Below are positions 22,724 through 23,908 of a DNA stretch of 64,000 nucleotides, one piece after another. The notes under the pieces are model-generated. The model had not been told where the DNA came from, did not search any database, and saw only the letters and a program-made list of their open reading frames with translations. Within the stretch, counting starts at the first letter, position 1; every line of letters starts with the position of its first letter. The stretch comes from Candidatus Alcium sp. F082 (lineage in GTDB: Bacteria; Bacteroidota; Bacteroidia; Bacteroidales; F082), in contig LPNG01000008.1 of the NCBI GenBank assembly GCA_001543395.1, forward strand, positions 1 through 64,000, in the 5' to 3' direction. The position numbers and the translations under genes were made by a program.

Positions 22724-22835
22724 AAACAAAAGCATTAAGGCTGTCGCAGGATTGCGGCAGCCTTATTTATTTTGTTATATTTCAAGTGTTTGCAACTAAG
22801 TGTTCTCTGTTCGCGAACAAAGAATACATAAATAA

Positions 22836-22866
22836 GTAGGGAGAAAATATATTGGTAGGGAGAAAA
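22836..22866 (+). promoter_or_regulatory. Two GTAGGGAGAAAA direct repeats upstream of fic (candidate operator)
   Basis: GTAGGGAGAAAA occurs at 22836-22847 and 22855-22866, 19 bases apart start to start. The second copy ends four bases before the -7 element at 22871, so a bound protein would cover the -33 region. Three further copies lie inside the fic gene near its 3' end. Confidence 0.7.
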
Positions 22867-22870
22867 GTTG

Positions 22871-22878
22871 TATCTTTG
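22871..22878 (+). promoter_or_regulatory. -7 promoter element (TATCTTTG) of fic
   Basis: TATCTTTG is a perfect TAnnTTTG match, 16 bases upstream of the chosen start at 22895; it rules out the upstream Met at 22868. Confidence 0.7.
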
Positions 22879-22894
22879 CGGCAAAAACAACAAT

Positions 22895-23908
22895 ATGAGC
22901 ATCTGGGAAGAAATAGAAAAACTGATACAGACATACGAAACCTTGGGCATTGGGCAACAAGTGGACTACGACAAGTTCTACTTATACTCACTTATCACCC
23001 ACTCTACCGCCATTGAAGGCTCGACCATCACTGAGGTAGAGAACCAACTCTTGTTTGACGAAGGTTTAACTTCCAAAGGCAAAAACATCAATGAGTATTT
23101 GATGAACTTGGACTTGAAGGCAGCCTACGAAGCCAGTATTTCAATGGCAAAAGCCCGCACTGAAATAACGACTGAATGGCTAAAAAAAATGGCTGCCTTG
23201 GTGATGAAAAGCACGGGTAGCACTTATAAAACCGCTTTGGGTGAATTCTCTTCCGCCAACGGAGACCTAAGACTGTTGAATGTAAGTGCTGGCATTGGAG
23301 GTGCTTCCTACATGGATTTCCACAAGGTACCCGATCGATTACAGAATTTCTGCAACAATCTGAATGACAAGCGAAAAAGCATCAGCAAAGAAGACAAAAA
23401 AAACCAATACGAACTCAGTTTTGATGCGCATTATGAATTGGTTACTATCCATCCATGGGTGGACGGTAACGGCAGAATGGCCCGATTGCTCATGAATCAT
23501 CTTCAATTTGAATACGGCCTAATACCTACAAAAATCCTGAAAGAGGATAAATCTGAATACATTCAAGCGCTTATCGACACTCGAAGAGACGAAAACTTGC
23601 AGATTTTCAGAGATTTCATGTTCAAAACGCTAAGAAAAAACCTTCAGCAAGACATCCAATCCTTTGCTGAATCGCAAAATGAAGTGGGGAGAAAAGATTT
23701 AAATAGTAGGGAGAAAAATAAAAACAGTAGGGAGAAAATCATGGAACTACTGCGTGAGAACCCCAAACTCACCACGGCAGGTTTAGCACAAGAAGTGGGC
23801 ATCTCAGCCAAGGGTGTTGAGAAGCAGCTCGCCAACCTAAAGCGAGAAGGATTGCTTCGCCGCATCGGTCCCGACAAAGGAGGCCATTGGGAAGTCGTTG
23901 GTTTGTAA
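22895..23908 (+). CDS. fic: Fic-family protein with C-terminal winged helix
   Basis: A 337-residue protein. The Fic active site HPWVDGNGRMAR starts at His186 and keeps the catalytic His and the anion-binding GNGR, so AMP transfer (or transfer of another nucleotide part) to a target protein hydroxyl is expected. An N-terminal inhibitory motif S-T-A-I-E-G (Ser37 to Gly42) fits class II Fic proteins, in which the glutamate blocks ATP binding. The C-terminal 60 residues (ENPKLTTAGLAQEVGISAKG) form a winged helix-turn-helix. Between the domains lies a linker with NSREK twice. The start at 22895 (MSIWEEIEKL) follows a perfect -7 element; an in-frame Met at 22868 would precede it. It is monocistronic. 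The DNA repeats in the promoter recur in the linker. Confidence 0.9.
   Translation: MSIWEEIEKLIQTYETLGIGQQVDYDKFYLYSLITHSTAIEGSTITEVENQLLFDEGLTSKGKNINEYLMNLDLKAAYEASISMAKARTEITTEWLKKMAALVMKSTGSTYKTALGEFSSANGDLRLLNVSAGIGGASYMDFHKVPDRLQNFCNNLNDKRKSISKEDKKNQYELSFDAHYELVTIHPWVDGNGRMARLLMNHLQFEYGLIPTKILKEDKSEYIQALIDTRRDENLQIFRDFMFKTLRKNLQQDIQSFAESQNEVGRKDLNSREKNKNSREKIMELLRENPKLTTAGLAQEVGISAKGVEKQLANLKREGLLRRIGPDKGGHWEVVGL
23684..23738 (+). repeat. Three GTAGGGAGAAAA repeats inside the fic linker
   Basis: Copies lie at 23684-23695 (GTGGGGAGAAAA), 23706-23717 and 23727-23738, 21-22 bases apart. The first is read in a different codon frame (giving VGRK) from the other two (giving NSREK), so the similarity is at the DNA level and not simply a peptide repeat. 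Confidence 0.75.

Follow-up and report, generated by a model that had tools for sequence, protein, structure and literature searches.

In the window, the whole 64,000-nucleotide stretch of DNA that was analysed, a fic gene that opens with an ATG at 22895 and closes with a stop codon at 23906-23908 encodes a Fic/DOC domain (PF02661, 56.3 bits), a linker and a C-terminal winged helix (PF13412, 34.1 bits, residues 279-322), the combination of Fic domain and C-terminal HTH that characterizes CccR-like proteins (Table 1). The catalytic motif HPWVDGNGR is of the HPFx[DE]GN[GK]R type of class II Fic/DOC proteins, with AMPylation as a putative activity, and H186, P187 and D190-R194 are invariant in the alignment of relatives. 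N-terminal of the Fic core, S37-TAIE-G42 fits the pattern [ST]xxxE[GN], which we take to be the inhibitory-helix motif of class II Fic proteins and which agrees with placement in that class; T38-G42 is invariant and S37 nearly so among 33 aligned sequences. Searches of solved structures returned the Fic fold, one of them barely testing the winged helix. The structure model has a mean pLDDT of 81, and in what follows column j of the winged-helix alignment is residue 280+j; K306, E309 and K310 (columns 26, 29 and 30) are the predicted base-reading residues.

Upstream of the gene lie a -33-like TTG of the Bacteroidota promoter type and a -7 element resembling the consensus TAnnTTTG. Further upstream, just before the promoter repeats, is an imperfect palindrome around TTCGCGAA that is perfect or nearly so in the relatives L035-L039. 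Its half-site occurs only here in the organism's own assembly at up to two mismatches, and it is perhaps the site of another regulator or a hairpin.

Table 1. Features of the fic locus, in window positions
Feature	Position	Strand	Basis
Imperfect 28-bp palindrome	22800..22827	.	sequence; just upstream of the promoter repeats
Promoter copy 1, GTAGGGAGAAAA	22836..22847	+	sequence; upstream of the -33-like element
-33-like TTG	22852..22854	+	sequence read; Bacteroidota promoter type
Promoter copy 2, GTAGGGAGAAAA	22855..22866	+	sequence; in the -33-like/-7 spacer
-7 element, TATCTTTG	22871..22878	+	sequence; similar element in most relatives scanned
fic, 337 aa: Fic/DOC domain, linker, C-terminal winged helix	22895..23908	+	domain matches, structure model
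S-T-A-I-E-G, putative inhibitory helix	23003..23020	+	sequence; motif type [ST]xxxE[GN]
Fic catalytic motif HPWVDGNGR	23450..23476	+	PF02661 match
Linker copy 1, GTGGGGAGAAAA, one mismatch, VGRK	23684..23695	+	sequence
Linker copy 2, exact GTAGGGAGAAAA, SREK	23706..23717	+	sequence
Linker copy 3, exact GTAGGGAGAAAA, SREK, adjoins winged helix	23727..23738	+	sequence
Winged helix (HTH_24)	23735..23905	+	domain match, profile, model; alignment columns from residue 281
Recognition helix, residues 305-317	23807..23845	+	structure model; covariation

The first-pass annotation had read the motif GTAGGGAGAAAA twice in the promoter and three times in the gene. Four of these copies are exact, and the fifth, the first copy in the linker, carries one mismatch that had been overlooked. 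The coordinates bear out the reported spacings (19 bp in the promoter, 22 and 21 bp in the gene), as well as the observation that the first internal copy is in a different codon frame: it is read GTG-GGG-AGA-AAA (VGRK) and the other two AGT-AGG-GAG-AAA (SREK), so that one DNA word serves two frames. Across the own assembly (2,363,478 bases in 153 contigs, 72% complete) the exact motif is found four times, every time at fic, against none for a reversed control pattern, and it is not scattered through the genome in the way that the first-pass annotation had named as refuting its reading. Allowing one mismatch raises the count to 13, the control then having 9, so that no site outside fic is conspicuous; allowing two, the window alone holds 10 against 3.8 expected. 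A regulon elsewhere in the genome was rejected, as there are no exact sites outside fic.

Two more winged-helix genes with arrays lie on other contigs of the own assembly, C45 (L233) and C96 (L234). The SSQK-type unit of the C45 gene has two copies in its linker and two elsewhere, against three for the control, and the C96 gene encodes two winged helices, each behind its own, different array.

Linker arrays and the recognition helix

Linker arrays directly before the winged helix were found in Fic-HTH and AlbA_2/HATPase-HTH genes from several phyla. The best 80 matches of the protein search came from Bacteroidales, Fibrobacter, Omnitrophota, Elusimicrobia, Delongbacteria, Verrucomicrobia, Alphaproteobacteria and others, and a scan of eight proteins found the same winged helix joined to AlbA_2 and HATPase_c_4 domains. 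The repeats ahead of it fall into several classes (SREK, TREK, SSEK, SSQK, TTQK, GGQK and others). In the [ST]REK loci, counted after eight near-identical loci had been left out, all 20 have AGG for Arg and GAG for Glu, and Ser is always encoded by AGT (14 of 14) and Thr by ACT (6 of 6), whereas five Arg, four Gly and four Pro codons are in use in the control peptide R.GP[DA]KGG, which these loci encode about 45 codons further downstream. In a wider set, which includes near-identical genes, AGG accounts for 60 of the 63 Arg codons in the arrays but for 80 of the 753 in the remainder of those genes. Out-of-frame 10-mer repeats, some few of them repeats other than the unit itself, are present in 24 of 206 distinct linkers, compared with a mean of 2.0 and a maximum of 6 over 50 rounds of codon shuffling (the broken, truncated or shifted L082, L088, L096 and L097 and the N-masked L094 were left out). 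In-frame 10-mer repeats occur in 168 of these 206 linkers and a unit spacing of 12 in 186 cases; a single unit is found in 51 of 149 linkers. In other fic linkers, too, one word is read in two frames, GGTCGATAAA as MVDK or WSIK (L058, L059, L061, L063) and GCCAGAAAA as GQK or WPE (L095). At L007 (G110:C8:4418-4449), two exact copies of the motif face each other, 20 bp apart.

A winged-helix profile matched 56 of 395 genomes of the phylum at E 1e-10 and 87 of 173 genomes of the family at E 1e-11, and stretches fetched for 100 of the listed places, together with the loci, gave 262 distinct winged-helix domains. For 111 linkers with repeats (effective number 68), covariation was computed between the bases of the last unit and 56 columns of the protein; here, as in the clustering and the pair test below, linkers without K at column 1 were left out. 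The set includes SREK fic loci that had been recruited by the motif (L001, L010-L012, L014, L015, L017, L018, L021, L024, L029), whose genomic places were also returned by the protein searches. After background correction, each of the top 9 among 728 pairs of base and column involves one of columns 25-34, which belong to the recognition helix in the structure model. Base 2 covaries with column 30, bases 4-5 with column 26 and bases 6-7 with column 29.

Clustering at 75% identity reduced 159 domains to 88 clusters. Base 7 is G in 40 of the 42 clusters with E at column 29 and in 11 of the other 46, and base 2 is G in 27 of the 33 with K at column 30 and in 3 of the other 55. At column 26, K goes with AG at bases 4-5 (15/19; otherwise 4/69), R with TC (20/32; otherwise 1/56) and D with AC (7/8; otherwise 3/80). 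Base 6 falls at the third position of a codon. In units with Ser as second residue, column 29 is E in 12 of the 13 clusters that use TCG and in none of the 7 that use TCA; TCC and AGC were seen once each. The first-pass annotation had proposed that selection or copying acted on the DNA and not on the peptide, and the frozen codons, the coupling of a synonymous base and the out-of-frame repeats all agree. A linker peptide that contacts the recognition helix was likewise rejected, because the signal is present at synonymous bases.

Shared ancestry was addressed with pairs of tips joined by paths that share no branch, on a tree built without columns 24-31, which rests on 48 columns and is poorly supported. 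As means over 60 random pairings, pairs with the same as against the opposite association were 16:0 for E29 and base 7, 14.1:0 for E29 and base 6, 20.7:0 for K30 and base 2, 10.5:1 for K26 and AG, and 12.6:0 for R26 and TC; D26 and AC gave 5:0, too few for significance. Nine mismatched control pairs, chosen by hand, were never significantly biased (4.0:6.2 to 4.3:2.0). Supported branches alone leave one or two pairs in the tree program's own test of the comparisons shown. What argues for coupling is that matched positions are biased on this weak tree and mismatched ones are not. With unit bases covarying with recognition-helix residues, the winged helix is very probably the reader of the motif, as the first-pass annotation had supposed.

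Promoter copies in one fic clade

One fic clade comprises 24 genes, and 20 of them have copies of the motif or its variants in their promoters (the window fic, L035-L039, L041-L045, L068, L069, L072, L074, L088, L094, L325, L348 and L349); genes of identical sequence were left out of the comparison of promoters and linkers. On a tree of 67 Fic domains, without L082 and L097, the branch that holds these 20 genes and four Fibrobacter genes, and nothing else, has a support of 92, and the tree shows two changes of promoter state. There are fewer than 20 independent cases, since six of these genes are the window fic and relatives 93-95% identical to it, and L041 is close to L042, as is L044 to L045. 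The Fibrobacter genes L070, L071 and L105 have no promoter copy within 150 bp, nor has L073 within 47 bp; the four are closely similar to one another and have copies in their linkers. The recurrence upstream of related fic-HTH genes for which the first-pass annotation had called is therefore found throughout the clade, the Fibrobacter genes excepted, and among intact clade genes with readable promoter and linker there is no homologue that lacks the repeats in both places.

The nearest relatives repeat the layout of the window fic, with two promoter copies 19 bp and two linker copies 21 bp apart. L043, L044, L045, L088 and L348 have three copies in the promoter, mostly at intervals of 21-22 bp, and L325 has five, counted by eye. 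The second copy is inverted over the -7 region in L068, L069, L072, L074 and L094, with 1-3 mismatches of 11, and one or more copies lie 3' of the -7 element in L041, L042, L043, L325 and L348. L043 has GTAGGGTAAAA in promoter and linker alike, both having changed together. L044, L045, L348 and L349 have promoter copies and no linker copies, from which it follows that promoter sites can persist alone. In L349 column 29 has changed from E to Q and the promoter word, TGTAGTAAGAAAA, is altered at bases 6-7, those coupled to column 29 in linkers elsewhere; this is a single case, noticed after the coupling had been derived from linkers.

Outside the clade, none of the scanned genes has a promoter match at up to one mismatch of 11, and at two mismatches L052, L352 and L357 have one each (L351, L356 and L357, also outside the clade, are of the VPVN and TREK classes). 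When the 95 genes with enough upstream DNA, again without linkers lacking K at column 1, were searched for their own unit near the opening of the ORF (up to one mismatch of 11), matches were found in 10, all of this fic clade; its members L072 and L074 miss the cut. None of the 78 non-SREK genes has such a match (background 1.6%), nor have the SREK genes L123, L124, L125 and L138 outside the clade, so repression at the promoter cannot be the general role of the arrays, and promoter operators common to all array genes were rejected. With own-unit matches confined to one clade, it is the linker array that is widespread, and the copies in the promoter are a local addition. An alternative raised by the first-pass annotation, that the array expanded from the operator into the linker, is contradicted by the linker arrays in other families and phyla that have no promoter copies; if either was added later, it would be the promoter sites.

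Losses of the fic body were observed in several loci. L011 (G026) and L205 (G593) show two different losses with junctions at the shared repeat, in metagenome assemblies where misassembly is possible. L024, L102 and L104 lack the fic body with a junction at the end of the upstream palindrome and retain a short frame with linker and winged helix, and G070:C36 resembles these three by its 121-aa frame alone. A phage origin was rejected, viral contigs yielding four distant relatives in each of two scans, as was a plasmid origin, for which nine records matched in the Fic-domain part only at less than 60% identity.

Regulatory reading, rival explanations and known systems

We give a probability of roughly 0.8 to the reading that GTAGGGAGAAAA is a half-site of the protein's own winged helix, through which fic is autorepressed at its promoter, with the linker as a second site and the whole as a portable module. 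The Fic protein, bound to the promoter copies in and beside the -33/-7 spacer, would block RNA polymerase, and repression of fic through these copies is the most likely outcome suggested by our data. The array about 0.85 kb downstream may act as a roadblock or a cooperative site, a second operator that would move along with the winged helix. Looping between the two sites, also raised by the first-pass annotation, is possible and hypothetical. In this clade the winged helix very probably reads the fic promoter as well as its own linker DNA, and the promoter holds recurrent candidate cognate sites, the coupling with the helix being seen in the linker copies.

It is unlikely that the promoter copies are the only operators and that the linker just repeats a tetrapeptide in tandem, with slippage and recent horizontal transfer keeping its DNA alike. 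The in-frame repeats and the prevailing spacing of 12 are what slippage would produce, and the restriction of promoter copies to one clade would also fit, but the mixed codons of GPDKGG some 45 codons further on speak against recent transfer, and neither the choice of TCG over TCA with E at column 29 nor the matched independent pairs are explained by slippage. The copies might instead be substrates for recombination, by which the winged-helix module or the Fic body is exchanged or lost while gene conversion homogenizes the copies. L011 and L205, where a promoter copy is joined straight to a linker copy, would agree with this, as would the fusion of one type of winged helix to both Fic and AlbA_2/HATPase; such a process, however, predicts no pairing of given bases with given helix residues, and the promoter copies retained without linker copies in L044, L045, L348 and L349 and the inverted promoter copies in five relatives weigh against it further, so we consider it very unlikely.

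Still less probable is an action in RNA, either as an internal ribosome-binding-like AGGGAG or as a repeat RNA that controls translation. AGGGAG is indeed Shine-Dalgarno-like, with an ATG at 23741 after the last copy, and five relatives have copies downstream of the -7 element, yet in the window the two promoter copies precede that element and would not be part of the expected transcript, L035 and other near relatives read ATC-CTT in place of ATC-ATG, the classes GGACAGAAAA, TTCACAGAAAA and GGTCGATAAA are unlike ribosome sites, and the coupling runs to a DNA-reading helix. Chance likeness of A/G-rich words in an A+T-rich promoter and linker could account for the single exact copies at unrelated places in other genomes, but hardly for an assembly in which all four exact copies lie at fic with none for the control, or for a layout repeated in relatives, and its probability is negligible.

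Repressor sites inside coding regions that can work with a promoter site are known from lac O2 and gal OI, and intragenic operators are an established kind of regulation. Those sites lie in a gene other than the repressor's and have no tie to a protein linker, whereas the candidate site here is in the repressor's own linker-coding DNA. The preferred reading, autorepression by the winged helix, has its closest parallel in CccR of Yersinia pseudotuberculosis, which also joins a Fic domain to a C-terminal HTH, represses its own gene by binding the promoter and, as a dimer, occupies two separated half-sites (PMC9755527). The available part of that report describes a promoter operator, a 10-bp inverted repeat with a 26-bp spacer, and mentions no intragenic array (PMC9755527); the window fic, in contrast, has direct repeats in both promoter and linker, and the site is coupled to the helix across a family. 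No widely spaced inverted repeat of the CccR type was found here, and inverted copies were seen in L068, L069, L072, L074 and L094 only.

The protein also matches the PADLOC model of SoFic (99.6 bits, residues 35-324), while its 28.5 bits against the NCBIfam SoFic equivalog NF046030 fall far below the cut-off of 550, so a role in defence is a lead only. The anti-phage protein SoFic likewise has a Fic domain with a C-terminal domain, and the accessible part of its description does not mention the array of sites that the window fic has (PMC12249575). Position-specific correlation of residues and bases has been described for DNA-binding families such as MerR, in the part of that work available as a tool for factors and their genomic sites (PMC5045206), whereas here the site lies inside each gene itself. 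Among the matches listed in a search of the open-licence literature, there was no description of the linker arrays or the motif in bacteria, and none of a coupling between winged helices and the linker DNA of their own genes. Autorepression, like the intragenic operator, is an established kind of control, to which the present evidence would add a form with the site written into the linker of the repressor itself, in more than one family.

A proposed portable recognition module

Fic and AlbA_2/HATPase_c_4 winged-helix genes appear to carry their own recognition sequence as linker-coding DNA, and with the array serving as linker, DNA-binding specificity and site would travel as one module. We regard it as probable, with less confidence than the reading of the window itself, that effector genes of multiple phyla (Fic, AlbA_2/HATPase_c_4 and others) carry a self-regulating cassette of winged helix and own-site array whose code can be read. 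If so, the DNA target of each protein would be recorded inside its own gene, self-regulation would follow wherever the cassette lands and whatever effector is fused to it, and the code of the winged helix could be read directly (column 30 with base 2, column 26 with bases 4-5, column 29 with bases 6-7). Many uncharacterized Fic-HTH and AlbA_2-HTH genes, some of which match models of candidate phage-defence proteins, would then print their DNA target in their own linker, and peptide linkers would be constrained by DNA recognition and not by protein function. Nature would thereby supply a recognition code exemplified many times independently, and direct tests of the specificity and autoregulation of these winged helices, and of their engineering, would come within reach.
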